Assembly: GCA_020072645.1 (NCBI GenBank)
Contig: JAIQGK010000012.1
Span: 558,001-622,000, forward strand
Direction of reading: 5' to 3'
DNA: 64,000 nt
From: Terriglobia bacterium
GTDB lineage: Bacteria > Acidobacteriota > Terriglobia > Terriglobales > Acidobacteriaceae
Part shown: positions 22,039 to 62,654 of the stretch, in pieces
Numbering within the stretch: the first letter of the stretch is position 1
Layout of the letters: each line of letters starts with the position of its first letter
The notes under the pieces: generated by a model
What the model saw: the letters and a program-made list of their open reading frames with translations, nothing else
Database searches by the model: none
What the model was told of the DNA's origin: nothing
Made by a program: the position numbers and the translations under genes

Positions 22039-23166
22039 CTACTGCTTAGTCAGAATCTCTTCCAGAAAATCCAGCGCCCGCGGATCGTTCATCTGTCCCA
22101 GCCAGAAGATGGCTTGCTTACGCACGACGGGGTTCTTGTTCGTTTTGGCCACGTTGATCAGGCGTGGGACCGCATCGGCATCATGCATCTGACTCAGCGC
22201 AAACACTGCTTTTTTCTTCACTTCCGTCTCAGGATCGTTTTCGATTGCGTCAGTAATCTGCTCCGCGGCTTTTCTGCTGCCCTTCTGCGCCAGCCAGAAA
22301 ATTGCCTGCCCCCTGACGCGCGGGCTTTGGTCGTACCGGGCCATGCCGATCAGGTCCTTCAGCGCTTCCGGTTCTTTGCTTTGTGAAAACGCGAACGTGC
22401 CTTTCTCCCGCATACGATCATCTGGATCGTCGCGCACGTACTTGCGAAGAAGCTCCAGGCCTTTCTTTCCGCGCTCCACACCCAGCCAGAACGCGACGTT
22501 TTCGCGCAGCGACGGGCGTTGTCCCGGCTGAATCATCTTTTCCAGCGCGGCATCGGCGGCTGGCGTGTCATGCATGGCGATGGCCATCACCGCCTGATGC
22601 TCCGGGCCTTTCCTTCGGGACTCGCTCTCGGAGGCTTCAGCAAGGGCCATTTTGCTCAGCAGTTCCACGCTCTGCTCCGGCTTTACGTCTTCCAGCCAAT
22701 AAAGTGGGAGATTGGCAAAGTCGAGAGGACAGTCAGCGCTGTACACGCGAATTTTTCTAATCTGCTTTTCTTCGGCGCGCAGGAAAATGAACGCATAGGG
22801 CAAGGGCTCTGGCGGCGAGCAGTCGGAGTTCGTCCCGCTAAAGGAGCTGCCTCTTTCCGACTCCAGCTTGCAGCCTATACAACACTTGCTTGCACTCGAT
22901 ACTTCTTGATCGAAGGAGTCAAAACAGCACATCGTACGTTCTTTAGCGGTCGCAGGAATTCTGTAGCCGATCCAGAGCGGCGCGGTCTGTTTCTGCACCA
23001 GGCCATCCACAGTCGCCTGAAGACCGGACGACGCGGAAAGCTCCTGCACCTTCGCGTTGGATATCTTCGGTTTCTGGGCGACTGGCTGCGCGGGTTGCTG
23101 CGCAGCCGTCATGACGGCATAACCAGCCAGCAAAATTGCGAGTATGTGTCTCTGCCAGGTTTTCAT
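22039..23166 (-). CDS. Exported HEAT-repeat protein with Cys-rich N-terminal region
   Basis: 375 residues with a signal peptide (MKTWQRHILAILLAGYAVMTAA). A Cys-rich stretch follows at about 75-120 (TMCCFDSF, KCCIGCKLE, SDCSPPE). The C-terminal half is built from HEAT or PBS-lyase-like helical repeats of about 31-35 residues, with recurring units such as VRGQAIFWLAQKGSRKA and VRKQAIFWLGQMNDPRA. These form a solenoid for protein binding. An AAGGAG ribosome-binding site lies upstream, 10 bp after the preceding HEAT gene. Last gene of the sigma/anti-sigma operon, so it is probably a partner or output of that system. Exact role unknown. Confidence 0.82.
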   Translation of the reverse strand: MKTWQRHILAILLAGYAVMTAAQQPAQPVAQKPKISNAKVQELSASSGLQATVDGLVQKQTAPLWIGYRIPATAKERTMCCFDSFDQEVSSASKCCIGCKLESERGSSFSGTNSDCSPPEPLPYAFIFLRAEEKQIRKIRVYSADCPLDFANLPLYWLEDVKPEQSVELLSKMALAEASESESRRKGPEHQAVMAIAMHDTPAADAALEKMIQPGQRPSLRENVAFWLGVERGKKGLELLRKYVRDDPDDRMREKGTFAFSQSKEPEALKDLIGMARYDQSPRVRGQAIFWLAQKGSRKAAEQITDAIENDPETEVKKKAVFALSQMHDADAVPRLINVAKTNKNPVVRKQAIFWLGQMNDPRALDFLEEILTKQ

Positions 23167-23176
23167 CGAGCGCTCC

Positions 23177-24415
23177 TTACTTGTTCAGGATTTCCATCAT
23201 GTAGTCGCTGATTTCCGGCGAATTCATGAGAGACATCTTTGAGATCAGCGATCTCTTCAGTTCAGGATTAGTTTCCTTGCGGGCCAGCGCCACCATCTCT
23301 TTCCCGGCGCCATGCAGAAACAACGCATTGATGACTTTCTTTTTTGTGGAAACATCAGCTTGCGAGTTATAGACCTTGGTCAAAGCGGCAAGGCTTTCTT
23401 CGCCGCCTACCAGACCAAGGGTATTGATGGCTTTGTCCAGGACAGCCGGGTCCTTCTCTGTCTGAACGATCTCCGCCAGTTCATGGGCACACCCGCACAT
23501 AAGCATCGCGCCCACGGCCTCCTTGCGTGTCTCGACATCAGGTGAGTTTTTGTAGAAATCGAGCAACTCCGCGCGACCTCCCATCATGCCCAAGTAGCGA
23601 ATGGCTTCGCGGCGAAGCTCAGGGTTCTTTTCTGTCTTCGCCAGCGCTGCGACGTCATCCTTGCAGCCACACATAAGCCACGCCTGAAAAACGGTCTTTT
23701 TCACGCTTATGTCCGTGGAGGAGTTATAAACTTCCTTCAGCACGGCGCGGTTGCGGGGATTGCCGTTCATGCCCATGTTACGGATAGCGCGCTTCTGTAA
23801 ATCCGGCTGATTGTTCGCCTTGGCGAGCCCCACGAGAATCTCCTGGGCTTTCTCCGATCCGCTCTGCGAAAGTACGAACAGTGCTTTGTCTTTCAGCTTC
23901 GGGGGATAATTCCCCGTGATGATCTTTTCCAGCAAGGGAACGGCTTTCTCCGGATTGGAATTCATCAGGCTCTGGATCGCCAGCAGTTTCAATTCCTCAT
24001 CGGAAATGTTTTCTGGATTGCTGACGCCGCGAATTTCCTGCTCCAGCGCCCCGGCGTCCCGCAGCCAATTGCTCTTGGGATAGTTCTTGCGAAGCTCGCC
24101 AATCGCCGTCAGCGCCTGCGCCTTGTTACCGGCCTTGTTCAGAGCGTAGGCCTTCCAGTACATGGCGCCGTCAGCGCGGCGTCCGTGGATCTTGATCACT
24201 CCATCGAATTGCTTGATGGCGTTATCGTATTCGCCGTTATCAAGCGCGTCTTTGGCGGCCTGATACAGCTCGTCTTCGTGCGCGTTCGCCTTCTCCGCGG
24301 TCTGCGGATCCAGCAGTGCAGCCGAGGGCACTTGCTGCGCCGCAGCGGCGGAAGACAGCCCAAAAGAAACAGCGATATTTAAAAATAAGATCAGAAATAA
24401 TTTGCGATTCATCAT
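23177..24415 (-). CDS. Exported TPR/HEAT-repeat protein
   Basis: 412 residues with a signal peptide ending near SSAAAAQQ. Residues about 45-125 read as tetratricopeptide-like helices (DALDNGEYDNAIKQFDGVIK), and from about 140 onward there are HEAT-like repeats, two of which carry the same LMCGC sequence at their turns. Together with its neighbour it forms a pair of secreted helical-repeat proteins. It starts 2 bp after the anti-sigma factor stop, so coupled expression is expected. No enzymatic motif seen. Confidence 0.82.
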   Translation of the reverse strand: MMNRKLFLILFLNIAVSFGLSSAAAAQQVPSAALLDPQTAEKANAHEDELYQAAKDALDNGEYDNAIKQFDGVIKIHGRRADGAMYWKAYALNKAGNKAQALTAIGELRKNYPKSNWLRDAGALEQEIRGVSNPENISDEELKLLAIQSLMNSNPEKAVPLLEKIITGNYPPKLKDKALFVLSQSGSEKAQEILVGLAKANNQPDLQKRAIRNMGMNGNPRNRAVLKEVYNSSTDISVKKTVFQAWLMCGCKDDVAALAKTEKNPELRREAIRYLGMMGGRAELLDFYKNSPDVETRKEAVGAMLMCGCAHELAEIVQTEKDPAVLDKAINTLGLVGGEESLAALTKVYNSQADVSTKKKVINALFLHGAGKEMVALARKETNPELKRSLISKMSLMNSPEISDYMMEILNK

Positions 24416-24417
24416 GG

Positions 24418-25185
24418 TTATAGCCTCTGGTTTACGCTGCCGCCGGAAAGCTCCGGACGCCGCGCTCTAGAATTCACTTCAGAACCGACTACGCGTACCT
24501 TGAACAAAAGCCCTTCAGACTGGATCGTGTGGCGCACCTGCTCTAAATCGTCGGGCGAAACTTCTGCTGGACCATTGGCGATCTCCGCCAGCACGCGACC
24601 CAATTGGTCGAGCAATCGAGCCACCCGCGGATCGCCCGCTTGTTGCGAACTCACGCGATATAGGTGATTGTTATCCAGCAACTCGCGGGCCTCGGCTTGT
24701 TCACTGGAAAAATTGATGGGACCTTTGGTGTCATTGTTCATGATTTCCACCAGAAGCATCTGCGACCGCTCCAGGTGATCGCCGACAGCGACTAAAACCA
24801 CACGTTGCGGATTGACCTGTGAAGCCGGTTGTTGCGCGATCTGCGGGCCGGGACGGGGCCAGAAACGGCCAGCCAGAAACGCTGCGACCAGCAGTAGGGC
24901 CATTACTCCCGCGAATGCCCATTTTGGTGGCGACGGCCTGAGCACCCGTCTAAGAAAGCCTGTTTTTTCCGGCAGACGGTCACGCAGATTCAGCCATGTT
25001 TTTTCTTCAAAGCCCGGGCCAGGCTCAGGGACTTCCAATGGTTCGATCTGCTGCAGCGTGGACTGCACACGCGCAAATTCAGCGCGGCACTCCGCGCAGG
25101 CGGCCAGATGGCGCTCCACTTCCGATGCTTCTTCTACATCGCCGTAATAATGCAATACGATCTGTTCTTCGCTTAGATGGTTCAT
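24418..25185 (-). CDS. Anti-sigma factor with zinc-finger (ZAS-type) N-terminus
   Basis: Start taken at ATG 25185 (MNHLSEEQIVLHYYGD), overlapping the sigma-factor stop by 4 bp. 255 residues. The cytoplasmic N-terminal domain has the HxxxCxxC motif HLAACAEC (about 26-33) typical of zinc-binding anti-sigma factors. A single transmembrane helix (about 85-107, WAFAGVMALLLVAAFLAG) leads to a periplasmic domain of about 140 residues rich in Glu and Gln. It should hold the cognate ECF sigma factor inactive until an envelope signal is received. Confidence 0.87.
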   Translation of the reverse strand: MNHLSEEQIVLHYYGDVEEASEVERHLAACAECRAEFARVQSTLQQIEPLEVPEPGPGFEEKTWLNLRDRLPEKTGFLRRVLRPSPPKWAFAGVMALLLVAAFLAGRFWPRPGPQIAQQPASQVNPQRVVLVAVGDHLERSQMLLVEIMNNDTKGPINFSSEQAEARELLDNNHLYRVSSQQAGDPRVARLLDQLGRVLAEIANGPAEVSPDDLEQVRHTIQSEGLLFKVRVVGSEVNSRARRPELSGGSVNQRL

Positions 25186-25811
25186 TTCACTGCGCTCCCG
25201 CCCCACCGCGCTCCGCGCGTTGAAGAACCCGGACCGGCATAAGGTTCCAGCTGCTGCCTGAGTTTTTGCACCGCGCGGAACACGCTGTTCTTGGCGGCGC
25301 TGGCTTTCAGGTTCAGCGCTTGGCTGATCTCTTCAATAGACCGGCCTTCCATGTGGCGCATGGTGAAGGCCACGCGCTCAGCCGGCGTGAGTAAACCAAG
25401 TGCCCCGGCAATCTTCTGCTTCATCTCCGCGCTCAGCACCAGCCGGTCTGGCCCTGGGTTTTGGGCCGGAAGCTGAATCTGCGCGCTGTCCTCGGCGTCA
25501 GGGTTATCGACAATCTGATAAGTATCTTTCGTCTGCATATGCGTTTTTCTCGCGGTCAGGAAGTCAAGCGTGCGGTTCACCGCGATCCGGTAGAGCCATG
25601 TGCTGAAGTTGGCGCGAAGCTCAAAACGCTCCAGGCTCTTGTAGGCCCGCAGGAAAGTTTCCTGGACGAGCTCTTCCGTATCCTGCTGGTTCCCGGTCAT
25701 GCGGTAGATCACGCGGAAGATGCTGCGCGAATGGCGGTCGACCAGGACACGAAAAGCATTTCTGTCGCCGGCCAGGACCTGCGCCACTATTGCTGCATCT
25801 GTAACTTCCAT
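25182..25811 (-). CDS. ECF-type RNA polymerase sigma factor
   Basis: 209 residues. Region 2 (DRHSRSIFRVIYRMTGNQQD, then TEELVQETFLRAYKSLERF with FSTWLYRIAVNRTLDFL) and region 4 (LTPAERVAFTMRHMEGRSIEEI with HTH ISQALNLKASAAKNSVFRA) are clear. A longer than usual acidic/Pro linker joins them. First gene of a four-gene leftward operon: sigma, anti-sigma, two HEAT proteins. The sigma factor may regulate its own operon, but no clear ECF promoter pair (AAC/CGTC-like) was identified upstream. Confidence 0.92.
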   Translation of the reverse strand: MEVTDAAIVAQVLAGDRNAFRVLVDRHSRSIFRVIYRMTGNQQDTEELVQETFLRAYKSLERFELRANFSTWLYRIAVNRTLDFLTARKTHMQTKDTYQIVDNPDAEDSAQIQLPAQNPGPDRLVLSAEMKQKIAGALGLLTPAERVAFTMRHMEGRSIEEISQALNLKASAAKNSVFRAVQKLRQQLEPYAGPGSSTRGARWGGSAVK

Positions 25812-28374: not shown

Positions 28375-28956
28375 TTAGACCACGAAAGGCACCAGCGCTT
28401 TCACGCGCTGTTTGTAGTCCAGATATGCGTTACCAAACTGCTGGACCATAAAAGCTTCTTCCATCCGCAGTTTGAGCCCGAAGCCCAGAAGCAAAAGGAA
28501 AAAGCCCACAAAGCCACGCAGTTCACCATGAACGATCGCGGTACTCAGGTAAGCCAGCAGCAAGCCGGTATAAATCGGATGGCGGACAATACGATACGGG
28601 CCACTTTGAATCAGCTCATGTTGTTCTTTGATCGTGATGGTTCCGCTCCAGTTTCTTCCAATCCAAAAGCGCGCCAGGATCGCAAAGCTTACGCCGGCGG
28701 CAGTAAGAATGAGTCCAGTCCACAGCAAGGCGTCATCGTGTGCAGGCAGGACTCTCTGGCGTAGCCAGCGCGGCCAAAGGCGGCGGTCAAAAAGTAAAAA
28801 GAATGCCGTGGTAACCAGGATGGTCTGCTCCAGGCGTGAAGCAATAGTTTGCCTCTGCACACTGCGCTTCGCTGTAAGCGCGCTCACCAGCCAGACGATC
28901 CAAAGGGCTGTCCAGAGGTACGCTACGCCTGTGTTGAAAATGTCTTTCATCTGCAT
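28375..28956 (-). CDS. Isoprenylcysteine carboxyl methyltransferase-like membrane protein
   Basis: 193 residues with four or five hydrophobic helices. The C-terminal half carries the ICMT/PEMT-type SAM-binding pattern: LIQSGPYRIVRHPIYTGLLL followed by Glu in RMEEAFMVQQFGNAYLDYKQ. Such bacterial proteins methylate small or lipid substrates in the membrane; the real substrate is unknown. Starts at ATG 28956 or the Met two codons later. Confidence 0.82.
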   Translation of the reverse strand: MQMKDIFNTGVAYLWTALWIVWLVSALTAKRSVQRQTIASRLEQTILVTTAFFLLFDRRLWPRWLRQRVLPAHDDALLWTGLILTAAGVSFAILARFWIGRNWSGTITIKEQHELIQSGPYRIVRHPIYTGLLLAYLSTAIVHGELRGFVGFFLLLLGFGLKLRMEEAFMVQQFGNAYLDYKQRVKALVPFVV

Positions 28957-29273
28957 CTGCCTGAAGATACGATTTTCTGGGCGGAGTGGTTCAGATTGCC
29001 GCTGCTCACTTCAAGACTACAAGTGCCTGGGTTTCATCATCAGGCGGCGTTACGAAGGGTCTAGTGCTTTTAAATCCAACGACTTAGCCGTGTTTTCGTC
29101 TCGCCGTTTAATGCTGAGAAAAACCACTGAACCATTATTTACACCCGTTCACGTAAACCTTGTTAAATAAACAGCCGCCCGGCAATTACTATAATCTCGA
29201 AACCAATATCCCGTTTTGTTTCTGTCTCATAGCTTGGAAGAGGGCGCCAAGGGCGCAAGGAGAGGCACAACTA
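28957..29273. other. Divergent intergenic region upstream of the radical SAM gene
   Basis: About 317 bp between the leftward methyltransferase-like gene and the rightward radical SAM gene. A TATAAT hexamer at 29190-29195 is a possible -10 box, though no good -35 is seen. GGGCGCAAGGAGAGG near 29251-29265 gives the ribosome-binding site of the radical SAM gene. No small gene was recognised. Confidence 0.5.
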
Positions 29274-31388
29274 ATGCACAAGCCGGTAAAGTACGCAGAG
29301 AAAGTCCTGACCTACGGAGCGAAAGGGGCTTGGGCTGTTTTTGAAAAGATCAACAGCATCAAGCCGCGGCCTTCATTCACGCCAAAATGGTCAGACAAGC
29401 CGATATTGAAGTCGTGGGAAAAGACGAAGCCGCCGCTAGGCTGGCCGCGCTCCACGGACTCTCTGTGCCCCAAGTGCGTTCCGGAAATCCGGCAGCAGAT
29501 TGTTGACGGCAAATTACCGCATGAGATCCTGCTCAATGAAAAAGCCGGCGAGATCAAAGCCACTATCGTGGAGCGCGACGGCAAAATCCTGATGGTGAAG
29601 GATTGCCCGCTGCATGGCCACTTTGAAGACGTGATGGCCGTTGACGTTGAATTCTTCAAGCATCTGGAAGACGTTTTCCCTGGGCGCGATATCCGCGCAC
29701 ACAACGACGAAAAGCTGCACAACCACGGCACCAGCACGGTAAAGCACGGCCGCGGATCGGTCCTTACGATCGACCTGACGAACCGCTGCAACATGATGTG
29801 CGACCCCTGCTTCATGGACGCGAACCAGGTCGGCTTTGTGCATGAGCTGACGTGGGACGAGATCAAGACCATGCTGGACAACGCGATCTCGATCAAACCG
29901 CGCAGGCAGATGTCAGTACAGTTCTCCGGCGGCGAGCCGACTCTGTCTCCATATTTCCTCGATGCCGTCCGCTACGCCCGCCAAGTTGGTTACAACTCAG
30001 TGCAGGCCGCGACCAACGGAATTGAATTTGCGAAGTCACCTGAGTTCTGCCGCCAGGCCGCGGAAGCCGGTTTGCGCTACGCTTACCTGCAGTTTGACGG
30101 TATCGGAAACGCAGCGAACTCGCATCGGCAGGTCGGTAATTTGTTTGACGTGAAGCTGCGCGCCATCCACAACCTGCATGAAAACGGCGTGGATATTGTT
30201 CCGGTCACCACCATCATCAACGGGATCAATAATGAGCAGGTGGGCCGCATCATTCAGTTTGCGCTGGATAATCCCAGGACCATCAGCTTCCTGAGCTTCC
30301 AGCCGGTTTCATTTACTGGCCGCGATGAAGAGATTACCGACGACCGCCGTCAGGCGCAGCGCTACACGCTGAGCCATCTGGCGCACGACGTAAAAAACCA
30401 GACCGGCCTGGGCGAGCCCAAGCGCGACTGGTTCCCAATCTCATTTATGTCCACCTTCTCTGATTGGGCCGACTTGATCCATGGCCCCAGTGCAGATTGG
30501 GGACAACTGAGCTGTGGATGCCACCCGAACTGCGGCGTGGGCATGGCCGTGATGATCGATAAAGAAACTAAGGAAGCAGTGCCAGTCACGGCGTTCCTGA
30601 ATGGTGACCGCATCGCGCAGGACGTGGCTAAGGTCAATGACGCTGGTCGCGGACGGTTTCTCTCGGTCTTCGGCATGGCGCTGGCTCTGGCCCGCAACTA
30701 CGATCCGTTCCAGGCCCCCAAGCACTTCAAGCTGATCGATCTGCTGAAGAAATTTGACAAAACGTTTGGCGCAACGAAAAATCCCGACGCGAAGTACGGG
30801 AGCGTCTCCGGCGATCGCACGGTTGAAGATATCAAGAAGCGTCGCCAGGACCGCTGGAACTTCCTGTTCATCGCCGGAATGTGGTTCCAGGACCTTTACA
30901 ACTACGACTTCCGCCGTACCGAGCAGTGCATTATTCCTTACGCCACTCAGGAGGGCGAAATCAGCTTCTGCGCCTATAACACGGGCGTGGGCTGGCGCAA
31001 CATCATTGAAAAGATGCACATGACGGCCACGCTCACCAAGTGGTATGAAGAGCACGGGCGCCATGAGATTTTTGCCGGCGGCAAGGCCGTGGGCCTGAAC
31101 CAGAGCGCTCACAAGCTGAACCTGAATGAAGCGCATGTGCACGCAGGCCGCAACACCACGCTGGACGATCTGGGAATCGCCAAGACCGCGCGCGAAGAGA
31201 AGCTGCGCGCCCGCGACGAGAAGATAAAAAAGTCCGCGGACGATGCCCGCATGGAAGCGCTCTACCGCGAGCACATCCTGAAAGAGCCCAAGCCGCAGGG
31301 AGGGTTTATTCCTCTTGGCGCCATCGCTCCGGCGGCACCGAAAGCAGAAGCCACGCAGGAAAAGAAGGAAGAAGTTTTCGGCGACTAA
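29274..31388 (+). CDS. Radical SAM protein resembling tetraether / membrane-spanning lipid synthases (Tes-like)
   Basis: 704 residues from ATG 29274, chosen because AAGGAGAGG precedes it; the frame is open further upstream without a ribosome-binding site. An N-terminal domain has CPKC (LCPKCVPEIRQQ, about residue 65) and CPLHGHFED, a zinc-ribbon-like arrangement. The radical SAM core has CxxxCxxC in LTNRCNMMCDPCF (about 170-182), SGGEPTLS, then AYLQFDG and FLSFQPVSFTGRDEE. Cys pairs in SCGCHPNCGVGMA follow. This order matches the radical SAM family containing archaeal Tes and the bacterial proteins proposed to join lipid tails into membrane-spanning lipids. The C-terminal 200 residues, with a charged Lys/Glu/Arg region, are extra. 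A lipid substrate is inferred from motif resemblance only; other class members act on unrelated substrates. Confidence 0.8.
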   Translation: MHKPVKYAEKVLTYGAKGAWAVFEKINSIKPRPSFTPKWSDKPILKSWEKTKPPLGWPRSTDSLCPKCVPEIRQQIVDGKLPHEILLNEKAGEIKATIVERDGKILMVKDCPLHGHFEDVMAVDVEFFKHLEDVFPGRDIRAHNDEKLHNHGTSTVKHGRGSVLTIDLTNRCNMMCDPCFMDANQVGFVHELTWDEIKTMLDNAISIKPRRQMSVQFSGGEPTLSPYFLDAVRYARQVGYNSVQAATNGIEFAKSPEFCRQAAEAGLRYAYLQFDGIGNAANSHRQVGNLFDVKLRAIHNLHENGVDIVPVTTIINGINNEQVGRIIQFALDNPRTISFLSFQPVSFTGRDEEITDDRRQAQRYTLSHLAHDVKNQTGLGEPKRDWFPISFMSTFSDWADLIHGPSADWGQLSCGCHPNCGVGMAVMIDKETKEAVPVTAFLNGDRIAQDVAKVNDAGRGRFLSVFGMALALARNYDPFQAPKHFKLIDLLKKFDKTFGATKNPDAKYGSVSGDRTVEDIKKRRQDRWNFLFIAGMWFQDLYNYDFRRTEQCIIPYATQEGEISFCAYNTGVGWRNIIEKMHMTATLTKWYEEHGRHEIFAGGKAVGLNQSAHKLNLNEAHVHAGRNTTLDDLGIAKTAREEKLRARDEKIKKSADDARMEALYREHILKEPKPQGGFIPLGAIAPAAPKAEATQEKKEEVFGD

Positions 31389-41399: not shown

Positions 41400-43622
41400 A
41401 TGTCGTTTTCGTTCCTTCAACGCGGTAGTTTGCCTGATCACGCCCGTCAGCTTGTTGTGACCAGCGATGAACCCTCGCTCGTTCTGGAAGGCCTGGTCAC
41501 GGGAATAGATAATCTCCGGCACGACGTTTACCTGAGTTCCAAGTTCACTGAAATTGCCCGCCAGCACATTTTTAAACTCGTGGCCAGACACGGAAACGTG
41601 GAAGACATGGTCGCGGACGATCGGCCAAACGGTCGCCCGCCGATGCGCCCCAACGGCCACGCGAGCCGACAATCGGATTCGGTGGAATTCAAGAGGCTGC
41701 TGACCGAACTGCATATTGTGTCATTGAACCGGGCGAAAGCCGAGAACAACGTTTCACTGGATCTGCTTTTTAGGCTGGCCATCCTAAAGTTTCAGCGTAC
41801 CGAGCTGGTGCACCAATATGCCGTGGCGCTGGAGCGCTGCCGCAACCGTGTGAAGTCGTATGAAGGTCCCCGCCAGTCCGGGCAAAGCCGCACCGTGGAG
41901 ATGCGCGAACGGATTGCGCATTTCCAGATCAACAAAAAGACCGTGCTGCGCCGCGCCGGCCAGGACCTGTTTGTCATCCTGCGGGAAGCAGAAAAAGAAA
42001 TCCTGGGGCGCACCAGGCGCTCGCTTTTTGGCGATGCGATGACGGCAAAATACGAGTTGTTCCTGAACCGGCTGGTATTCACTGAAGATGGCCAGGACAA
42101 CCTGCTCAATGCCGAGCATTACGTGATGCTGGGCAATTATGACCGCGATAAAGACAGGTTTGAAACCATGCGCGACATTGCCGCGCGATACCTGAAATCG
42201 CTTGGGCTGGTGAGCGATGTGGAAGACCCGATGGTCGGTGGCATCCTGAATGTGCCGGAAAACGCGCATGAAATCATGGCCGGCGGATCGCCTGAAGACA
42301 GCAACGCCAAAGGCAAGGCGCAAAAAGCTCTGCTGAATGCATGGACGGAGTTGCTGGAGCGCGAAGGCGTGATTGACAGCGTGGTTGCGTCGTATGAAGC
42401 GGTGCCGCTGCTGGCGCAGTACTCGCCGCCAATCAATCCACAGCAAATCAAGAACGCGCTGATCTCCCGCGAGGAACGCAGGCGCGTGGAAACGCTGCTG
42501 GAAGAGCACGGCAAACTTTCTCCCGACGGAATGCACGCCGCGGTGAAAAAAGTGGAAAGCTGCAAACCGGCCGAGCGCGCCAAACTGGCTGCGCGCTTCT
42601 TTACCGACTTCACGCGCTATCATCGTGACCTGCGCCGCATGGAAGCTGTGGTTGAAGCTATGGAAAACGTCAATGTGCTGGCCAACGAGCGTTTCCGTGA
42701 GCTTTCCGCCATCAACAACACGCTCTATGAATTTCTGCTGGCGGAAGAGCAAAAGCCGGCAGAAGAAAAAGTGATTCACCACGTGGTGCTGAAGGCTGAC
42801 ATTCGCGAATCAACCACGCTGACGCGCACGCTTTTGGAAAAAGGGCTGAATCCCGCTTCTTACTTCAGCTTGAATTTTTACGATCCAATCAACAAGCTGC
42901 TGCCGAAATATGAAGCGAAAAAAGTTTTTATTGAAGGCGACGCGCTGATCCTGGCGCTGTTTGAGCGTGACGGCGAACCGGCGCTAGGTGTGGCGCAAAC
43001 CTGCGTGCTGGCAAAGGAAATCATCCAGGTGGTGACCGCTTACAATGAGCGATCGCTTTCTGCCGGGCTGCCGAGCCTGGAGCTTGGCATCGGAATCTCA
43101 TACCAGGATTCCGCGCCCATGTACCTGATGGACGGCAACAAGAAAATCATGATCTCAAAGGCGCTGAATGAGAGCGATCGTCTCTCCTCATGCAGTAAGG
43201 GCGTGCGCCGGCTCATGAAAGACCACGAATTGCTCTTCAATGTGTTTTCATTCAAGGCGGTTGAAGACGAAGACACCGGCGGCAATCCTGACGAATTTCT
43301 GCTGCGCTACAACATTGGCGGCATTCACATTAATGAAGCGGCATTTCAGAAGCTGCGCGGAGAGATCTCACTCCAGGCATACGATCTACAGGTCCCGATG
43401 ATCTGGCAGAAGAGCGCGGTGCGTGTTTATGCTGGCGTAGTACCGCTAGGCCAGGGAAGCTTTCATCACATTATTGTGCGTGAAGGCTGCATCACACACG
43501 TGGACGCACGAGATTTCTCGCCCAAAGGGGTTACAGACCGTTACTATTACGAAGTCTGCACACATCCGAAGATTTATCAGGCGATTGAGGCTGTTTCAAA
43601 CAACCTGGTGGCTGCGCGATAG
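41400..43622 (+). CDS. 740-residue protein with C-terminal class III nucleotide-cyclase-like domain
   Basis: The N-terminal 450 residues are mostly helical, charged and of no recognised family; no signal peptide or membrane segment. From about 455 the sequence follows a class III adenylate/guanylate cyclase: VVLKADIRESTTLTRTLLEK (first metal Asp), VFIEGDALILALF (second metal Asp), LELGIGISYQDSAPMYL, and ISKALNESDRLSS, where N-x3-R matches the transition-state Asn/Arg pair. The base-selecting Lys expected four residues before the second Asp is Phe here, so base choice or activity may differ. A further 130 residues follow the cyclase core. Ends directly against the convergent TonB-like gene. 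The cyclase reading is by motif only. Confidence 0.7.
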   Translation: MSFSFLQRGSLPDHARQLVVTSDEPSLVLEGLVTGIDNLRHDVYLSSKFTEIARQHIFKLVARHGNVEDMVADDRPNGRPPMRPNGHASRQSDSVEFKRLLTELHIVSLNRAKAENNVSLDLLFRLAILKFQRTELVHQYAVALERCRNRVKSYEGPRQSGQSRTVEMRERIAHFQINKKTVLRRAGQDLFVILREAEKEILGRTRRSLFGDAMTAKYELFLNRLVFTEDGQDNLLNAEHYVMLGNYDRDKDRFETMRDIAARYLKSLGLVSDVEDPMVGGILNVPENAHEIMAGGSPEDSNAKGKAQKALLNAWTELLEREGVIDSVVASYEAVPLLAQYSPPINPQQIKNALISREERRRVETLLEEHGKLSPDGMHAAVKKVESCKPAERAKLAARFFTDFTRYHRDLRRMEAVVEAMENVNVLANERFRELSAINNTLYEFLLAEEQKPAEEKVIHHVVLKADIRESTTLTRTLLEKGLNPASYFSLNFYDPINKLLPKYEAKKVFIEGDALILALFERDGEPALGVAQTCVLAKEIIQVVTAYNERSLSAGLPSLELGIGISYQDSAPMYLMDGNKKIMISKALNESDRLSSCSKGVRRLMKDHELLFNVFSFKAVEDEDTGGNPDEFLLRYNIGGIHINEAAFQKLRGEISLQAYDLQVPMIWQKSAVRVYAGVVPLGQGSFHHIIVREGCITHVDARDFSPKGVTDRYYYEVCTHPKIYQAIEAVSNNLVAAR

Positions 43623-53715: not shown

Positions 53716-55065
53716 ATGAGAGGTCTATCGATGAATCGAGTTGCGGCGTTGGCAGCCAGCTTGTTTCTGGTTTCACTTGCGGTTGGACAGGAACAAAAAG
53801 CTCCCATCAAGAACGTAGCCGCGGTTGCGACCCGTTATGTCCGCTGCGGAGCGCTGGTGCAACCGGAAAGCGGCAAGGTGCAGCGCAATGTGCTGATCAC
53901 TATCCAGGGTGAGCGAATCCAGCAGGTGCAGGAAAATGCGCAGGCCCCGGCAGGCGGCCACGTGATTGATCTTTCTGACCACACATGCCTGCCCGGATTG
54001 ATTGATACGCACACGCATACGCTGTTGCAGGGCGATATCACAGCCGCAGACTATGACGAGCAGTTGCTGAAGCAATCCACGGCGTACCGCGCGATTCTGG
54101 GGACACGCTCTGTGCGCCGCGCACTGGATTACGGCTTTACCACCATCCGCGACCTGGAAACCGAAGGCGCAGGTTATGCCGACGTGGATTTAAAGAAGGC
54201 CATCAACAATGGAATTATTCCCGGCCCGCGCATGAAAGTGGCCACGCGCGCCATGGATGTTACGGGCGCTTATCCGCTCTCAGGATATTCGCCGGAAATA
54301 ACCGTCCCGCATGGCGTGCAGGTGGTGGATGGGCCCGAAGATGGCCGCAAAGCGGTGCGCGAGCAGATCAGCTATGGCGCGGACTGGATCAAGGTCTATT
54401 CTGACCGCAGTTATTTTGTGCGGCCGGACGGAGTGCTGGATGACATTCCAACTTTTACGCTCGACGAGCTACGGGCGATTGTGGACGAAGCGCATCGGCA
54501 ACATCACAAGGTGGCGTCGCACGCCATGGCGCTCAATGGCGTACACAATTCGGTTGAGGCCGGCGTGGATTCCATTGAGCACGGAAACTACATCGCTGAA
54601 GCTGACCTGAAAACCATGGCGCAAAAAGGGATCTTTTACGTCCCCACGATTTATGTTGGCGAATACGTTGCCCAGGGACGCGCCGCTGCCGGAGCAAAAG
54701 TCTGGCTGGAGATGATCAAGATCCATGAAGATACTTTTCACCGCGCGCTGAACGCCGGAGTGAAGATTGCTTTTGGCACGGACGTAGGCGGCTTTGACTG
54801 GGGCATTGATCCGGCAGTGGAATTTCCTTACATGGTGAAGTACGGCATGACTCCGATCCAGGCTATCCGCTCCGCCACCACCAGCGCCGCGGAATTGCTG
54901 GGCATGCAAAATGATGTTGGCAGCATTGCCGTGGGAAAATATGCGGATTTAGTTGCGGTCAAGGGCGATCCGGTTGCGGATGTGGCGCTATTGCAGAAGA
55001 TTGATTTTGTAATGAAGGGCGGCGAAGTGCACAAGGGGGCTGATTCTCGGTCGAACGGGCAATAA
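53716..55065 (+). CDS. Exported metal-dependent amidohydrolase
   Basis: 449 residues from ATG 53716, which is preceded by GGAGGG at good spacing. A signal peptide (MNRVAALAASLFLVSLAVGQ from the internal Met) precedes an amidohydrolase fold: HTHT in LPGLIDTHTHTLL, metal/carboxylate Lys region YGADWIKVYSDRSYF, His in KVASHAMALNGVHNSVEAGV and SIEHGNY, and the catalytic Asp in FGTDVGGFDWG. This is the imidazolonepropionase-like/Xaa-Pro dipeptidase-type subgroup common in periplasm. Substrate unknown. Confidence 0.9.
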   Translation: MRGLSMNRVAALAASLFLVSLAVGQEQKAPIKNVAAVATRYVRCGALVQPESGKVQRNVLITIQGERIQQVQENAQAPAGGHVIDLSDHTCLPGLIDTHTHTLLQGDITAADYDEQLLKQSTAYRAILGTRSVRRALDYGFTTIRDLETEGAGYADVDLKKAINNGIIPGPRMKVATRAMDVTGAYPLSGYSPEITVPHGVQVVDGPEDGRKAVREQISYGADWIKVYSDRSYFVRPDGVLDDIPTFTLDELRAIVDEAHRQHHKVASHAMALNGVHNSVEAGVDSIEHGNYIAEADLKTMAQKGIFYVPTIYVGEYVAQGRAAAGAKVWLEMIKIHEDTFHRALNAGVKIAFGTDVGGFDWGIDPAVEFPYMVKYGMTPIQAIRSATTSAAELLGMQNDVGSIAVGKYADLVAVKGDPVADVALLQKIDFVMKGGEVHKGADSRSNGQ

Positions 55066-55102
55066 GACCAACCCAACAGCACTGGAACGAATCTTACAGG
55101 TT

Positions 55103-55246
55103 ATGGTGCTCTGGATCATTCTCGGCATGGCATGGCTCGCCATACTTTTTGCCGGGGTAACCTTGTTCCGCCTTGCCGATTATGCGGACAGGAAAGTGCG
55201 TCGCCTTGCGGAGCGTCCGCGGCAACGCAAAAAGCAAGTCGCCTGA
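55103..55246 (+). CDS. Small membrane protein (47 aa)
   Basis: Translates as MVLWIILGMAWLAILFAGVT, one transmembrane helix (about 2-23), followed by a basic tail (DRKVRRLAERPRQRKKQ) that sets a cytoplasmic C-terminus by the positive-inside rule. It starts 37 bp after the amidohydrolase stop on the same strand. Only ACAGG precedes the ATG, a weak ribosome-binding site. Clear helix plus Arg/Lys tail supports a real small protein; function unknown. Confidence 0.5.
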   Translation: MVLWIILGMAWLAILFAGVTLFRLADYADRKVRRLAERPRQRKKQVA

Positions 55247-55310
55247 GCATCTCTCACCCTGAGTTTCAAGTCGTTGGCGCATCTCTTTGCGATTCGTTAG
55301 TTCGCTGACA

Positions 55311-56444
55311 TTACTTGGTAGTAACGAGCCAAAGTGGCTGAATTGACTGGATAAAAGGCGAATTTGTAATCAGGCCCAAAGTGCCGTCAGAAGCCTTGAT
55401 GCCAAAGGCGGAGATGCTGGAAGATCCTTGATTGGCGACATAAAGAAACGTGTTGGAAACGTCCACAGTCAGGAATGTCGGCTGCGGCAGTCCAATGGAA
55501 CCGGTTGGTTGCACTAAAAAAGGCGAGCCGGCAACTTGCGTAAGCGCGCCGGAAGCGGCCTTGAAAGCGGAAACATCATTCGATCCCTGGTTCGCCGAAT
55601 AGACGAATGAAGAAGTTCCGTCCACGGCCACAGCCACAGGTTTGGTTCCGGCAGAAACTGATCCAACCGCGGCCAGTGGTCCGCCGGCGACATTGAAGCT
55701 GGCAATTTTATTGTTGGCGGAATCGGCAGCGTAAAGGAACTGGCCCTTGGGATCAATGGCCAGCCCCGCAACGATCGCGCCTGCGCCCAGGGAGACCGGC
55801 GAGCCGGAAAGTTCTGTCAAAGCGCCGTTGGTTCCAATGGCAAAAGCTGAAATAGTGCCCGCTGCTCCGTTCGAAACGTACAAAAAGCCCTGCGTGGGAG
55901 AGATTGCCAGAAATTGCGGGCTTGGCGCCGCAAGCGTTGTAAATGAAGCTGGACTCAGCAGGCCTCGAGTCTGATCAATGTTGAAAACTGAAATTGAAGC
56001 GGAAATCGAAGGCGATGAACCCTGGTTCAACACGAACAGAAACTGGCCTCCGGAATTAACGGCAACTCCTATTGGATTGGAGCAGACGCCCGGGCCGCAA
56101 ACCGGAGTAGGCGGCTGCGCGGTACCAATGGGCGCAAGCACGCCTGCGGTGTGGTCAACCGTAAAGCCGGAAACAGTGTTGGAAGTCTCATTTGGTACGT
56201 AAAGGAAATTCTTGGAAGGATGCAGCGCAATGGAAACAGGGCGCGGAACGGTAGAGAACGAGGACACCGCAAGTGGTGACAAATCACCGGTGGACTTTTC
56301 GCTGAAGCCGTGGATGGCATTGTCGCCCTGTCCAACAACGTATAGAAAAGCCAGAGTGGGCGCGGTGGAACTGCTGCTTGATCCCAGGCATCCGCTTAAA
56401 AGTAGGGCGATGAATAATAACGTTATGGTGAACAGTGCTTTCAT
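55311..56444 (-). CDS. Lactonase-family (7-bladed beta-propeller) lipoprotein
   Basis: 377 residues from ATG 56444, preceded by GAGGAAG; the frame is open to 56501. The signal peptide MKALFTITLLFIALLLSGC has a lipobox (LSGC, Cys19). Repeats of about 45 residues follow: LAISPTQGFLYVSNGAAGTI, LAIDPKGQFLYAADSANNKI, VAVDGTSSFVYSANQGSNDV and LTVDVSNTFLYVANQGSSSI. This is the YVTN/lactonase propeller pattern. The PGL-type lactonase catalytic residues were not identified, so a binding function at the outer surface is as likely as enzymatic activity. Confidence 0.87.
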   Translation of the reverse strand: MKALFTITLLFIALLLSGCLGSSSSSTAPTLAFLYVVGQGDNAIHGFSEKSTGDLSPLAVSSFSTVPRPVSIALHPSKNFLYVPNETSNTVSGFTVDHTAGVLAPIGTAQPPTPVCGPGVCSNPIGVAVNSGGQFLFVLNQGSSPSISASISVFNIDQTRGLLSPASFTTLAAPSPQFLAISPTQGFLYVSNGAAGTISAFAIGTNGALTELSGSPVSLGAGAIVAGLAIDPKGQFLYAADSANNKIASFNVAGGPLAAVGSVSAGTKPVAVAVDGTSSFVYSANQGSNDVSAFKAASGALTQVAGSPFLVQPTGSIGLPQPTFLTVDVSNTFLYVANQGSSSISAFGIKASDGTLGLITNSPFIQSIQPLWLVTTK

Positions 56445-56697
56445 TCGGTGCTTCCTCATCTTCTGGAAAATAAGAACGCCCACTGCCGCGCGCGGAATCA
56501 TGTGTTCGAATCGGCGATGGCAAGCTGCGAATCAGTCTAGCAGTTTGCCGTTATTCTATCAGTTGCGTCGCGCTGGTCTCTCTGCCGCAACCCGCTGTTG
56601 GCGTGCCAGTGCATAGACCTTATCAGAACGCCTGCGCGTGGACTTTCTTGCGCAGATAGAGTTGACTTTGGATTGCCAGCAGGCCAGCATTTTGTTC

Positions 56698-57474
56698 ATG
56701 GAAATTGCTCCCGCCGCATTGCCGAAGCGAATTGCACGCGTGATGGCGCGCGGCTGCGGCTTGCTCTGGGGAGTTTTCTGCTGCCTGGCGGAATATTTAT
56801 TGCGACGCCTGGGCGGAAGATTATCAGAACAGGTTCGCATTGAGGTGCTGCATCGCTGGTCGCGCAGGACTCTTCCGCGCATGGGTATCCGCGTTGAAGT
56901 TGCAGGCGCCCCGCCTGGCGCGGGCTTGATTGCCAGCAATCATCTCAGCTATCTCGATATTCTGGTCTATAGCGCCGTTGCGCCGTGCGCTTTTGTGGCC
57001 AAGCGTGAAGTCCGCGCATGGCCCGCCGTTGGATGGATTGCCACACTCGCCGGAACCATTTATGTTGACCGTTCCCGCCGTAGTGAAACGCATACCATCC
57101 AGCCGGAAATACAATCGGCCCTCGCGCACGGTTTGCGGTTATTCCTTTTTCCTGAAGGCACCAGCTCAGATGGTTCGCGCGTGCTGCCGTTTCATTCTTC
57201 GCTTTTCCAGCCCGCGGTAGACTTACAGGTACCGGTTTCCGCCGCAAGCATTGAGTATGCCATCCCTGACGGTATTGCCGCCGCTGAAGCCTGCTATTTC
57301 GGGACTATGAAGCTGTTTCCTCATCTCTTGAATCTGCTGGGCAAGCATTCGGTAATCGCCAGGGCAAACTTTTCCGCCAACAGCTTTTTCTTTACTGACC
57401 GCAAGCAGGCGTCGCTCAAGATGCATGAAGAAGTTGAGCGTCTTCGATTCTCCAGCATGGAAGTTGCGCCATGA
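56698..57474 (+). CDS. 1-acyl-sn-glycerol-3-phosphate acyltransferase family protein (PlsC-like)
   Basis: Start at ATG 56698 (MEIAPAALPKRIARV); GTG 56638 is an alternative. 258 residues. A hydrophobic helix (about 15-35) leads to the acyltransferase domain with H-x4-D in SNHLSYLDILVYS, FVAKREVRAWPAVGWIATLA, IYVDRSRRSETH, and LFLFPEGTSSDGSRVLPF (the FPEGTxS motif). It transfers an acyl chain to a lysophospholipid or similar acceptor. Overlaps the next gene by 4 bp, so cotranscribed with the hydrolase. Confidence 0.88.
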   Translation: MEIAPAALPKRIARVMARGCGLLWGVFCCLAEYLLRRLGGRLSEQVRIEVLHRWSRRTLPRMGIRVEVAGAPPGAGLIASNHLSYLDILVYSAVAPCAFVAKREVRAWPAVGWIATLAGTIYVDRSRRSETHTIQPEIQSALAHGLRLFLFPEGTSSDGSRVLPFHSSLFQPAVDLQVPVSAASIEYAIPDGIAAAEACYFGTMKLFPHLLNLLGKHSVIARANFSANSFFFTDRKQASLKMHEEVERLRFSSMEVAP

Positions 57475-58133
57475 GCACATACCTCGAGTTCGCTGATTTG
57501 TCGGCTGACCCTCCCGTTCGCGGTTTTCTTCATGAGCCCTCGCAGACCAATGGCGATGCGCTGGTCCTTACGCACGGCGCTGGAGCAAACTGCCAGAGCA
57601 AATTGTTAATCGCCGTGGCCGATGCTTTTGCCGACGCTGGATATCTCGTGCTGCGTTGCGATCTGCCATTTCGCCAGTCGCGCCCTCATGGGCCGCCGTT
57701 TCCCGCCATGGCTGCGCGCGACCGTGAAGGACTGCGCCGTGCCGTGGATGTCTTGCGATCGAAAACGCAGGGACGCATCTTCCTCGGCGGACATTCCTAC
57801 GGCGGTCGGCAAGGCAGCATGCTCGCCGCCGAGCATCAGCAACTCGCAGCGGGACTTCTTCTGCTCTCTTACCCCCTGCATCCGCCGCGCAAATCCGCAG
57901 AGCTGCGCACCGCGCACTTTCCTCAACTCAGAACGCCGTCATTATTTGTCCATGGCGGGCGAGATCCGTTTGGCTCGCACGATGAGATGAACGCCGCGCT
58001 CGCCTTGATCCCGGCGCAAACGATGCTGATGGAAATAGAAGGCGCAGGTCATGAGCTGCTGGGAAAGAAAAAGGATGAAAATCTCCCGTCCAGGATTGTT
58101 CAGGCGTTCCAGGGATTTTTTACAAAAGCTTAA
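57471..58133 (+). CDS. Alpha/beta hydrolase, TEX30/dienelactone-hydrolase-like
   Basis: 220 residues, cytoplasmic. LVLTHGAGANCQSKLLIAVA (oxyanion region), VLRCDLPFRQSRPHGPPFP, nucleophile elbow GGHSYGG, LLLLSYPLHPP, Asp in FVHGGRDPFG and the C-terminal His in IEGAGHELLG give a full Ser-Asp-His triad. The pattern is that of the KANL3/TEX30-like family. Coupled to the acyltransferase by ATGA; substrate unknown. Confidence 0.85.
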   Translation: MSTYLEFADLSADPPVRGFLHEPSQTNGDALVLTHGAGANCQSKLLIAVADAFADAGYLVLRCDLPFRQSRPHGPPFPAMAARDREGLRRAVDVLRSKTQGRIFLGGHSYGGRQGSMLAAEHQQLAAGLLLLSYPLHPPRKSAELRTAHFPQLRTPSLFVHGGRDPFGSHDEMNAALALIPAQTMLMEIEGAGHELLGKKKDENLPSRIVQAFQGFFTKA

Positions 58134-58155
58134 GGAATTGTGAAATCGCGTTGTG

Positions 58156-59676
58156 CTAGCGCCGCCACTGAAATGTTTTTACCAGAGCTCGTTTCATCCA
58201 TGGCTTCAGTCGGCCGCGCTGCGATGCGTCGCCCAACCGCTTGATGATCTCAGCTTCAGTGGGATAAGGATGGATCACTCCGCCCAACTGCCCCACTTTC
58301 ATCTTGTGCTGAATGGCCATCACCAGTTCGCCGATGCTCTCTCCCGCATGACGGCTAATCAACGTGGCGCCCAGCAGCCTGCCGTCTTTCTTGCGCACAT
58401 GGACGCGCGCGAAACCCTGCGTGTCGTTGTCCACCACGCCACGGTCATTGTCCTTGAAGGGGAGCTGAAATGTTTCCGTTTCCACTCCGCTCTTGCTCGC
58501 ACCTTCCTGGTTCAATCCAACATGCGCGATTTCAGGATCGGTATATGTACACCACGGAATCACCAGGTCGCTGGCCCGTTTGTGCCCGAAGAACAGCGCG
58601 TTCTGCAGCGCGATTCTCCCCAGCGCTTCTGCCGCATGCGTAAAGTGAAATGGCGATCCAATGTCCCCGGCGGCGAATATGCTCTTGTTCGATGTGCGCA
58701 GATGGTCATCAACGGTCACGCCCTTGCCGTCATACTTCACGCCCGCAGCTTCCAGGTTCAGCCCTTCGATATTCGGTACGCGCCCCGCCGCCAGTAGGAT
58801 CTCATCGCCTACCACTGTTTCGTTTTTCTGCCCGCGATTGACGATCAAAATCTTACCCACAGCCGACTTCTCAGCCCGCTCGACTTTCGCGCCCAGAATA
58901 AGCTCAATCCCTTCCTGCCGGAATTGTTGCTCCAACAGGGCGGCAACATCAGGATCCTCTTTTGGAAGCAGCCGCGAAACATCGCTCACCAGAGACACCT
59001 GGCTGCCCAGCCGCGCAAAAGCTTGCGCCAGTTCGCAGCCAATTGGTCCTCCGCCAATCACAATTAGCCGCCGCGGCAGCGCCGTGAGTGAAAACACAGT
59101 TTCATTTGTGAGATAACCTGCTTCCGTTAATCCCGGTATCGGCGGCACCGCTGCGCGCCCACCCACGGCGATGATCGCTTTCCTGAAGTCGAGCCGCTGC
59201 CCTTCCACTTCAAGCGAATGCCTTCCAGTGAAATGGCCATGACCGAGAAACATATCCACACCCAGTCGGGTAAAGCGCTGGACGGAATCATTCGGCGCAA
59301 TCTCTGCGCGAACCCGGCGAACGCGCCGCATCACATCGGCAAACTCTACTGTTGGTGGTTGCGTCTCGATTCCGAACTCACGCGCCTCTGTTACCGCGTA
59401 GGCTGCACGCGCCGAGCGAATCAGCGCTTTCGATGGCACGCATCCATAGTTAAGGCAATCACCGCCCGTAAGCGCGCGTTCAATCAGTGCTACGCGCGCG
59501 CCCAGTATTGCCGCGCCAGCCGCCGCCACCAGCCCTGCCGTTCCGGCGCCGACAACAATCAGGTTGTAGCGGCCTGCCTGCTTGGGATTGGTCCAATTAG
59601 GCGGGTGCGCATTTTCAACCAGCTTCTTGTTGAATTCGTCGGCGGGGCTCACCTCAATTGCGTGAGGTGGCGTCAT
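58156..59676 (-). CDS. FAD-dependent pyridine nucleotide-disulfide oxidoreductase, mercuric-reductase-like
   Basis: 506 residues from ATG 59676, which overlaps the arsS stop by 4 bp; the frame is open to 59727. FAD-binding VVGAGTAGLVAAAGAA, redox disulfide GGDCLNYGCVPSKAL (C-x4-C), NAD(P)H-binding VIGGGPIGCELAQAFARLG and DEILLAAGRVPNIEG are all present. The C-terminal Cys pair and the N-terminal heavy-metal domain of true MerA are absent, and the C-terminus ends KTFQWRR. So it is a MerA/Lpd-type homolog with an unknown disulfide substrate. The arsS linkage suggests a role in arsenic or thiol chemistry. Confidence 0.88.
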   Translation of the reverse strand: MTPPHAIEVSPADEFNKKLVENAHPPNWTNPKQAGRYNLIVVGAGTAGLVAAAGAAILGARVALIERALTGGDCLNYGCVPSKALIRSARAAYAVTEAREFGIETQPPTVEFADVMRRVRRVRAEIAPNDSVQRFTRLGVDMFLGHGHFTGRHSLEVEGQRLDFRKAIIAVGGRAAVPPIPGLTEAGYLTNETVFSLTALPRRLIVIGGGPIGCELAQAFARLGSQVSLVSDVSRLLPKEDPDVAALLEQQFRQEGIELILGAKVERAEKSAVGKILIVNRGQKNETVVGDEILLAAGRVPNIEGLNLEAAGVKYDGKGVTVDDHLRTSNKSIFAAGDIGSPFHFTHAAEALGRIALQNALFFGHKRASDLVIPWCTYTDPEIAHVGLNQEGASKSGVETETFQLPFKDNDRGVVDNDTQGFARVHVRKKDGRLLGATLISRHAGESIGELVMAIQHKMKVGQLGGVIHPYPTEAEIIKRLGDASQRGRLKPWMKRALVKTFQWRR

Positions 59677-60671
59677 TGCAGGCTGCCTCCGCAACTGGAA
59701 CCCGCGCCCGCGGTGCAGCCAAAGCAATGGCCGTCGGTGCTAATCGGTTTTTGCGCCAGCTCTGCGAAAGAATCAATTTCCCAGATGACTTTTCCGCCAG
59801 GTGTTTCCAGATCAAGCATCTGATTAAAGTCGCAATCGTAAATCCGGCCGTCCCATCCAATGCTTACCAGATCGCGGCACATCAAACCTTCCACGGTCGC
59901 GGGATTGAAGTGGTTTGTGAGAAGAGCCATATACGCTTCATGTTTTCCTTCGCGGAAAAGAAATTCCGCAAAGCGTTTGATCGGCATGTTGGTAATGGTG
60001 AACAGCCGGTCAAACTCGATTGCAAAATTCTCGCGTAGCTGCGTCTTGTAATCGTCTTCCAGCTTTTGCTGGGGTGGCGGCAGGGAAGCTCCCAGGGGGT
60101 TATATACCAGATTCAGCGTCAGCCCCTGTCCGCGTCCATAACCGGTTGCATTCAGCAGCCGCAACGCGCGGATACTCTTCTCAAACGCGCCTTTACCGCG
60201 CTGCTGGTCAACATTGCTTTCCGTATAGCAAGGCAGGCTTGCAGTGATCTCAACTTGATTGGCTGCCAGAAACTCCGCCAGCGTCTCCTGCCCCGGCTCA
60301 AAAAGGACCGTGAGATTGCAGCGATCGATCACCTGTTTTCCCATCTGCCGCGACTCGCGCACCAACCAGCGGAAATTTGCATTCAGTTCCGGTGCGCCGC
60401 CCGTGATGTCAACGGTGTGGATCGAAGGCGTTGCCGCCAGCAGTGCAATGACGCGTTCCGCAACGTTGGCTGGCATGATCTCTGTCCGCTTGGGGCCGGC
60501 TTCCACGTGGCAGTGGTGGCAAGCCTGGTTGCAGAGCTTGCCCACGTTGATTTGCAGCGTCGAAACCTCGCGCCGCTTGAGTTCGCCCAGGCCGTGTTGC
60601 CGAAGCGTGCCGTGAAAGTCAGCCGCCGAAGTGCGGTTCAAAATCGGCAGCAACGTGGTTTTCTCAGCCAT
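59673..60671 (-). CDS. arsS: Arsenosugar biosynthesis radical SAM protein ArsS
   Basis: 332 residues from ATG 60671 (MAEKTTLLPILNRTSAADFH); the frame is open to 60809 without features. Radical SAM motif CxxxCxxC in GKLCNQACHHCHVEAGPKRT, then VDITGGAPELNANFRWLV, SLPCYTESNVDQQRGKGAF, and the C-terminal CFGCTAGAGSSCGGS with the DUF3641-type MCRDLVSIGWDGRIYDCDFN. These match ArsS, which attaches adenosyl to arsenic species. arsM, its usual partner, is not in the window. Forms a two-gene operon with the MerA-like reductase. Confidence 0.9.
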   Translation of the reverse strand: MAEKTTLLPILNRTSAADFHGTLRQHGLGELKRREVSTLQINVGKLCNQACHHCHVEAGPKRTEIMPANVAERVIALLAATPSIHTVDITGGAPELNANFRWLVRESRQMGKQVIDRCNLTVLFEPGQETLAEFLAANQVEITASLPCYTESNVDQQRGKGAFEKSIRALRLLNATGYGRGQGLTLNLVYNPLGASLPPPQQKLEDDYKTQLRENFAIEFDRLFTITNMPIKRFAEFLFREGKHEAYMALLTNHFNPATVEGLMCRDLVSIGWDGRIYDCDFNQMLDLETPGGKVIWEIDSFAELAQKPISTDGHCFGCTAGAGSSCGGSLQ

Positions 60672-60908
60672 CCGGCAAACCCTTTCATTCGCTAGAATAT
60701 ACTGTAACCATACAGGCGAAGCGTGTTCCAGCGAACATCTCTTTCCCGATTTGTTAGATGTTAAACTAGCGGCTTTCATTGGCGCTGCTTTTTGGTTCCA
60801 CATTGGCAAAATGGGTGTAGGGAAATGCTTTTAAATTAATTCTGCGATCATGACCTGGTGGATTGGGAGCGCCTGTCTTTGCCGGAAGAACTTCGACCCA
60901 CGAAACAC

Positions 60909-61838: not shown

Positions 61839-61897
61839 TGCTCTGGTCAAATTCGGGAAGGGTGGAATTTACAAGCTCCGTTCGGTTCTGGTCTCCC

Positions 61898-62644: not shown

Positions 62645-62654
62645 GGCCGCTGCA

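Follow-up and report, generated by a model that had tools for sequence, protein, structure and literature searches.

A Tes-like radical SAM protein without the N-terminal cluster ligands as a candidate tail-coupling enzyme for membrane-spanning lipids in Acidobacteriaceae

The 64,000-nucleotide stretch of DNA analysed here (the window) holds on its forward strand a gene for a 704-residue protein in which two Pfam domains, Radical_SAM and Zn_ribbon_HMPTM, are found (Table 1). Direct reading places its start at the ATG at 29274, with the sequence AAGGAG 11 nucleotides upstream, and in 25 of the 34 relatives compared the homologous stretch opens with Met at the same position; a TTG at 29160 merely lengthens the mechanical reading frame. 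The motifs from which a Tes-like radical SAM protein had originally been predicted are present in the order described, namely CPKC (residues 65–68), CPLHG (111–115), CNMMCDPC (172–179), AYLQFDG (270–276) and QPVSFTGR (343–350). Extensions are found at both ends of the protein. The N-terminal one comprises about 57 residues, with a helix at residues 4–27 in an AlphaFold model. The C-terminal one, for which a helix is predicted in part (residues 639–667), exists as the original prediction had it, but is about 107–121 residues long rather than about 200, since homology to Tes reaches residue ~583–598.

Table 1. Features of the Tes-like gene, its product and other genes of the window, with positions counted from the first letter of the window.
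Feature	Position	Strand	Basis or remark
Class A Tes-like radical SAM protein, 704 aa	29274..31388	+	open reading frame
AAGGAG, probable ribosome-binding site	29257..29262	+	direct reading
N-terminal extension, residues 1–58	29274..29447	+	conserved in class A; beyond the match to the Tes model
Rubredoxin-type site C65, C68, C111, H114 (Pfam Zn_ribbon_HMPTM)	29466..29615	+	
Residues 139–165, at the place of the Tes [4Fe-4S]N ligands: DIRAHNDEKLHNHGTSTVKHGRGSVLT	29688..29768	+	no cysteine
Radical SAM cysteines C172, C176, C179 (CX3CX2C)	29787..29810	+	
QPVSFTGR, SAM-contact loop	30300..30323	+	equivalents of Tes Gln268, Ser271, Thr273, Arg275
CGCHPNC, residues 414–420	30513..30533	+	alignment; C420 aligned with a Tes cysteine
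Stretch with M536, C552, Y556, C566 (C-terminal cluster side)	30879..30971	+	alignment
C-terminal extension, residues 598–704	31065..31385	+	Lys/Glu-rich
ICMT/PEMT-type membrane methyltransferase	28375-28956	-	adjoins the class A gene
ECF-type sigma factor, protein without Pfam match (E ≤ 1e-5), two HEAT-repeat proteins, in a row	22039-25811	-	
740-aa protein	41400-43622	+	no Pfam match at E ≤ 1e-5

The gene seems to lack a conserved neighbourhood and to stand by itself: across the window and 80 loci of its closest kind (class A, defined below), many of which lie in short contigs, no further group of similar open reading frames was shared by more than 8 loci. The adjoining methyltransferase was considered as a part of the same system and rejected: it was not found in the flanking sequence read for the two nearest relatives (L003 and L070), in both of which the downstream DUF4440 and pilin genes are retained, and for this reason it was probably either inserted in the lineage of the window or lost in those relatives.

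The whole core of archaeal Tes (also GDGT-MAS; MJ0619) is matched by sequence, by profile and by fold, which bears out the Tes-like identity first proposed for the protein. The best solved structure in a sequence search was 7tol (E = 8.1e-65), and the best NCBIfam match was the Tes model NF045702 (325.7 bits, E 4.3e-97, positions 2–483 of 486), on which a profile scan of the protein's own genome scored it at 323.1 bits. In a fold comparison the AlphaFold model (pLDDT 73.5, pTM 0.80; weak at the metal loops, with pLDDT below 50 at residues 140–188, 415–418, 543–557 and other stretches) found 7tom as its top match over the whole core, with Z 23.5, 432 aligned residues and an rmsd of 3.6, versus Z 15.2 for MoaA, the best match among radical SAM folds other than Tes. 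TrsS (NF045646) has the N-terminal and radical SAM parts in common with the window protein and differs in that its profile is matched more weakly and in part (211 bits, under the cut-off of 490 bits; profile positions 13–296 of 441). As the Tes profile also matched weakly in all 14 well-known genomes used as controls (above the cut-off in three of them), full-length matches alone were counted; one such Tes-family match exists in the protein's own genome (6.4 Mb in 42 contigs; 99% complete), and the runner-up, at 59 bits, covers part of a radical SAM domain.

With Tes the window protein shares the core fold, the radical SAM motif, the rubredoxin-type site, the residues of the C-terminal auxiliary cluster, the equivalents of Met439 and Tyr459, and the SAM-contact loop. 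It differs from Tes in that it is only ~32% identical to it, lacks the ligands of the N-terminal cluster ([4Fe-4S]N), is extended at both termini, and has an extra cysteine, C414; moreover, its score lies under the NCBI cut-off for a Tes equivalog (450 bits). On two tested features, the curated cut-off and the N-terminal cluster ligands, it is therefore not a Tes in the strict sense, while its working like Tes is well supported.

Relatives were sorted by score into class A (scores above 600 bits against the window protein; 127 rows, itself among them), class B (more than 330 bits to M. jannaschii Tes; 12 rows) and class C (the remaining 7 rows). Identity to M. jannaschii Tes is 29–33% for the class A rows compared and 37–48% for 11 of the 12 class B rows; class B (for example L057, L058 and L150) is related to class A, and eight of its rows are 33–36% identical to the window protein. 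The NCBI cut-off for Tes is passed by all four class B proteins scanned and by none of three class A proteins, and neither that cut-off nor the one for TrsS is exceeded by any of the four class C proteins scanned, of which three have a better score with the TrsS model than with the Tes model and the fourth scores much the same with both. Class A comes together on a single branch (100/100) in both trees, of 61 and 33 rows, and the stem of this branch is long (3.84 and 1.79 changes per column, respectively); the class B rows L055 and L056 join the branch in either tree (100/99). The tree program warns of long branches, and the same grouping is obtained with class C left out. Class A is thereby placed among the sampled Tes sequences, in line with the Tes side of the original prediction, and as archaeal Tes is represented in the trees by one sequence and Mss (the bacterial enzyme discussed below) by no validated one, a position inside the Tes family holds for this sample only.

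Archaeal Tes has four metal sites (PMC9433317; here and below, this paper and PMC8941075, PMC11354219, PMC11868695, PMC12816986, PMC12935467 and PMC13274423 are cited from the parts of their text that were available), and the aligned rows of classes A, B and C allow each of them to be followed. The radical SAM cysteines are kept in 126 of the 127 class A rows, the one exception being a gap. The rubredoxin-type motif, C9X2C12X20C33X2H36 in the archaeal enzyme (PMC9433317), is likewise conserved in class A, with equivalents of C33 in 127 of 127 rows and of H36 in 126 and with C65 and C68 in 98%, although the spacing is X42 in the window protein versus X20 in archaeal Tes. Three cysteines, C420, C552 and C566, were assigned to the C-terminal cluster by alignment; the equivalent of Cys470 is found in 126 class A rows and the other two in 127 each. 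M536, the equivalent of the labile Met439, is present in all 127 rows and Y556, the equivalent of Tyr459, in 126, but this conservation is no proof of need, since archaeal Tes variants at both positions remained active (PMC9433317). The residues with a SAM-contact role in Tes, Gln268, Ser271, Thr273 and Arg275 (PMC9433317), have equivalents in every class A row, as do Tyr195, Asp199 and Gly145; that of Phe106 is found in 126 rows and that of Thr238 in 119, with Cys in the other eight. At the position of Asn108, 125 of the 127 rows have Asp, and that of Arg210 is variable. The window protein itself is identical to Tes at 9 of 11 further residues that the Tes paper places at or near the SAM site, the two differences being Arg210 to Gln and Asn108 to Asp.

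The ligands of the N-terminal cluster, in Tes C73, C77, C80 and a His, are the exception. Not one of the 127 class A rows has a cysteine at any of the positions of C73, C77 and C80; the first is occupied by K in 94 rows and by other residues in the rest, the second by H in 127 and the third by S in 124. In 125 rows there is no cysteine anywhere between the rubredoxin-type site and the radical SAM motif, and H151 is invariant (127/127). All four [4Fe-4S]N ligands are kept in 12 of 12 class B rows and in 6 of 7 class C rows. C414, which stands beside C416 and C420, is present in all 127 class A rows and elsewhere in two of the 12 class B rows (again L055 and L056) and none of the seven of class C.

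Searches of related genomes showed the gene to be nearly universal in its own family, the Acidobacteriaceae, where 109 of 110 genomes have a match at E ≤ 1e-20; one of these 109 (G672) matches only at 1.6e-90, which is the level of class B. The family assignment agrees with Granulicella sp. S156, whose locus L084 lies in G399 (match at C20:157683-159806): a match of equal score sits at that very position in G728, a genome of the window's family. The same threshold was reached in 385 of 399 genomes across the bacterial class (311 of the 317 of good quality), in 220 of 237 genomes of the family that holds the Bryobacterales MAGs, and in 220 of a sample of 396 genomes from the phylum, each of these three counts including some genomes at class B level only. 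Among the best 80 of 581 confirmed relatives, to which the scan of named loci was confined, the titles of class A records name Acidobacteriaceae, Bryobacterales, Pyrinomonadaceae/Blastocatellia and Vicinamibacterales. Plasmid records gave partial matches only, at less than 60% identity (36 records).

Several loci deserve mention in their own right. One genome of the Acidobacteriaceae (G073) carries a class A and a class B gene about 6 kb apart (contig C24, ~53990-63411; L044 / L158, L150), the class B gene scoring over the NCBI Tes cut-off, and the two are possibly a coupled or transferred pair. In some genomes (G025, G075; L068, L069) class A occurs twice, the additional copy having ~51% identity with the window protein. 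L159, L160, L066 and L067 are TrsS-like radical SAM proteins in which the N-terminal cluster motif is kept and the residues of the C-terminal cluster are partly missing; the genomes of L159 and L160 also carry class A. Finally, a class A gene (L127) whose product shares 76% identity with the window protein lies in a MAG titled Bordetella parapertussis (CALQCC020000001.1), which is probably an acidobacterial bin under a wrong label.

The taxa named in class A records can, we assume, be linked to the numbered subdivisions of the Acidobacteria. Of seven surveyed subdivisions, numbers 1, 3, 4 and 6 are those with reports of iso-diabolic acid (PMC13274423); the acid makes up 26.8–49.2% in five Occallatibacter/Terracidiphilus strains (PMC12935467), and is among the primary fatty acids of Chloracidobacterium (PMC12816986). 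Solibacter usitatus, on the other side, is reported to have two Tes homologues and to make brGDGTs, with no detectable iso-diabolic acid (PMC10087280). The link between gene and lipid is hard to test by presence alone, because hardly any genome of the class is without the gene. Edaphobacter modestus DSM 18101 contains 30.4% iso-diabolic acid (PMC11354219, Table 1), and its genome has one full-length Tes-family match, a class A protein (313.8 bits) sharing 81% identity with that of the window; the second-best match, at 52.7 bits, covers the Tes profile in part. A single full-length Tes-profile match was likewise found in Acidipila rosea and in Granulicella aggregans.

We suggest that the class A protein quite probably is the tail-coupling enzyme for membrane-spanning iso-diabolic acid. 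The C–C joining of lipid tails that had been predicted for it gains support from the homology, from most of the catalytic features, from the near-universal presence in the family and from the lipid of E. modestus, although the protein is not a plain Tes. Against the suggestion speak the missing [4Fe-4S]N ligands, the two differing residues near the SAM site, the score under the NCBI cut-off and the lipids reported for S. usitatus. From the observed homology, fold, residues and distribution, from the missing domain described below and from the co-occurrence of gene and lipid in E. modestus, we infer a substrate, a product and a mechanism by analogy with Tes. The [4Fe-4S] cluster bound by C172, C176 and C179 would cleave SAM to give a 5'-deoxyadenosyl radical, which would abstract a hydrogen from the terminal methyl group of an iso-C15 acyl chain of a phospholipid. 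The resulting carbon may then be held by a sulfide of the auxiliary cluster on the C-terminal side (C420/C552/C566, with M536) until a second SAM-derived radical, acting on another chain, allows an sp3–sp3 C–C bond to form. Two iso-C15 tails would thus be joined end to end into 13,16-dimethyloctacosanedioic (iso-diabolic) acid spanning the membrane, and the class A enzyme, unlike Tes, would do so without an N-terminal auxiliary [4Fe-4S] cluster.

As to how the product is attached to glycerol, PF09989 (DUF2229), which we take to be a marker of PlsA/Ger, has no match in the protein's own genome, whereas Thermotoga maritima is among the 4 of 14 controls in which it was found. The domain is not specific to makers of ether lipids, since the Thermus, Deinobacterium and Lactococcus controls match it too. 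BcrAD_BadFG matches in the protein's own genome occur only in frames of 295–320 residues. Because DUF2229 was not found there, an ester-linked product is favoured, and the product of the window strain is probably, at least in the main, ester-linked.

A change of function at the loss of the N-terminal cluster, with class A catalysing some other radical reaction (a cross-chain bond of the kind made by GMGT synthase, or a role like that of TrsS), would accord with the long class A stem, the lost ligands, the additional invariant C414 and the two extensions, but we consider it improbable in view of the conserved radical SAM and C-terminal cluster residues, the agreement at 9 of 11 residues at or near the SAM site, the weaker and partial match to TrsS, and E. 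modestus, which makes iso-diabolic acid and in which no second full-length Tes-family match was found. Likewise improbable, in our judgement, is a window enzyme that couples diethers toward tetraethers (brGDGTs): archaeal Tes does act on diethers, bacterial homologues have been proposed for brGDGTs (Zeng et al., PMC8941075), diether condensation has been proposed for S. usitatus (Halamka et al., PMC10087280) and low oxygen raises brGDGTs in E. aggregans (PMC13274423), yet DUF2229 is missing from the genome, the glycerol ethers of iso-diabolic acid were undetected in one study of Edaphobacter strains with 11.8–30.4% of the acid (PMC11354219), and the coupling by bacterial Mss was concluded not to discriminate ester from ether (PMC13274423).

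Beyond iso-diabolic acid tail coupling as the function of class A, we offer a more specific account tentatively, as possible rather than probable: class A may be a separate Tes-like enzyme of the Acidobacteriota, which early in its stem lost the surface [4Fe-4S]N cluster and acquired a further invariant cysteine close to the C-terminal one, and on which soil bacteria growing aerobically came to rely as their main enzyme for iso-diabolic acid in ester linkage, possibly as an oxygen-tolerant form of the archaeal chemistry. Among hand-chosen and related genomes, COX1 was found in 31 of 32 with class A versus 20 of 28 whose best match is at class B level (Fisher p 0.009), and strong aa3-like COX1 matches in 31 of 32 versus 17 of 28 (p 0.0007). 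The class-B-only status in these counts is given by the E-value level of the best match, with some sequences read, and G073, which has both classes and COX1, was left outside them; among another 10 genomes, all lacking a match at E ≤ 1e-20, 8 have COX1. As most of the class-B-level genomes have COX1 as well and the genomes are related to one another, this distribution speaks only weakly for an adaptation of class A to oxygen.

The general idea is already published. Bacterial Tes homologues were proposed for brGDGTs by Zeng et al. in 2022 (PMC8941075), whose E. aggregans homologue, single in its genome, 32% identical to archaeal Tes and found in a host that makes brGDGTs, is by its identity probably a member of class A. 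Mss, credited to Sahonero-Canavesi et al. (2022, as cited in PMC13274423), is reported to couple tails to iso-diabolic acid and to have a Tes-like architecture in models, and the window protein is likened to it by this description (PMC13274423). A 2025 paper, in the text available, describes the activity of bacterial Tes homologues as unconfirmed (PMC11868695). Our literature search, which covered available parts of papers other than the original report of Mss, found no acidobacterial protein of this kind with tested activity and no description of the N-terminal cluster loss of the acidobacterial branch; this loss and the split between classes A and B thus appear to be new as details.

Palaeothermometers for soils and lakes are based on iso-diabolic acid and on the branched tetraethers related to it. 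Genome surveys that apply the NCBI Tes cut-off can miss the class A branch. As a single gene of this kind was found in a type strain that is in culture and contains about 30% iso-diabolic acid, the question is directly testable by deletion. If class A couples tails, the N-terminal [4Fe-4S] cluster is dispensable for coupling, and if the more specific account given above is true, sp3–sp3 tail coupling would be run in these bacteria with two [4Fe-4S] clusters and not three. Among the soil bacteria of its family, the class A gene is the best candidate for the synthesis of membrane-spanning lipids.
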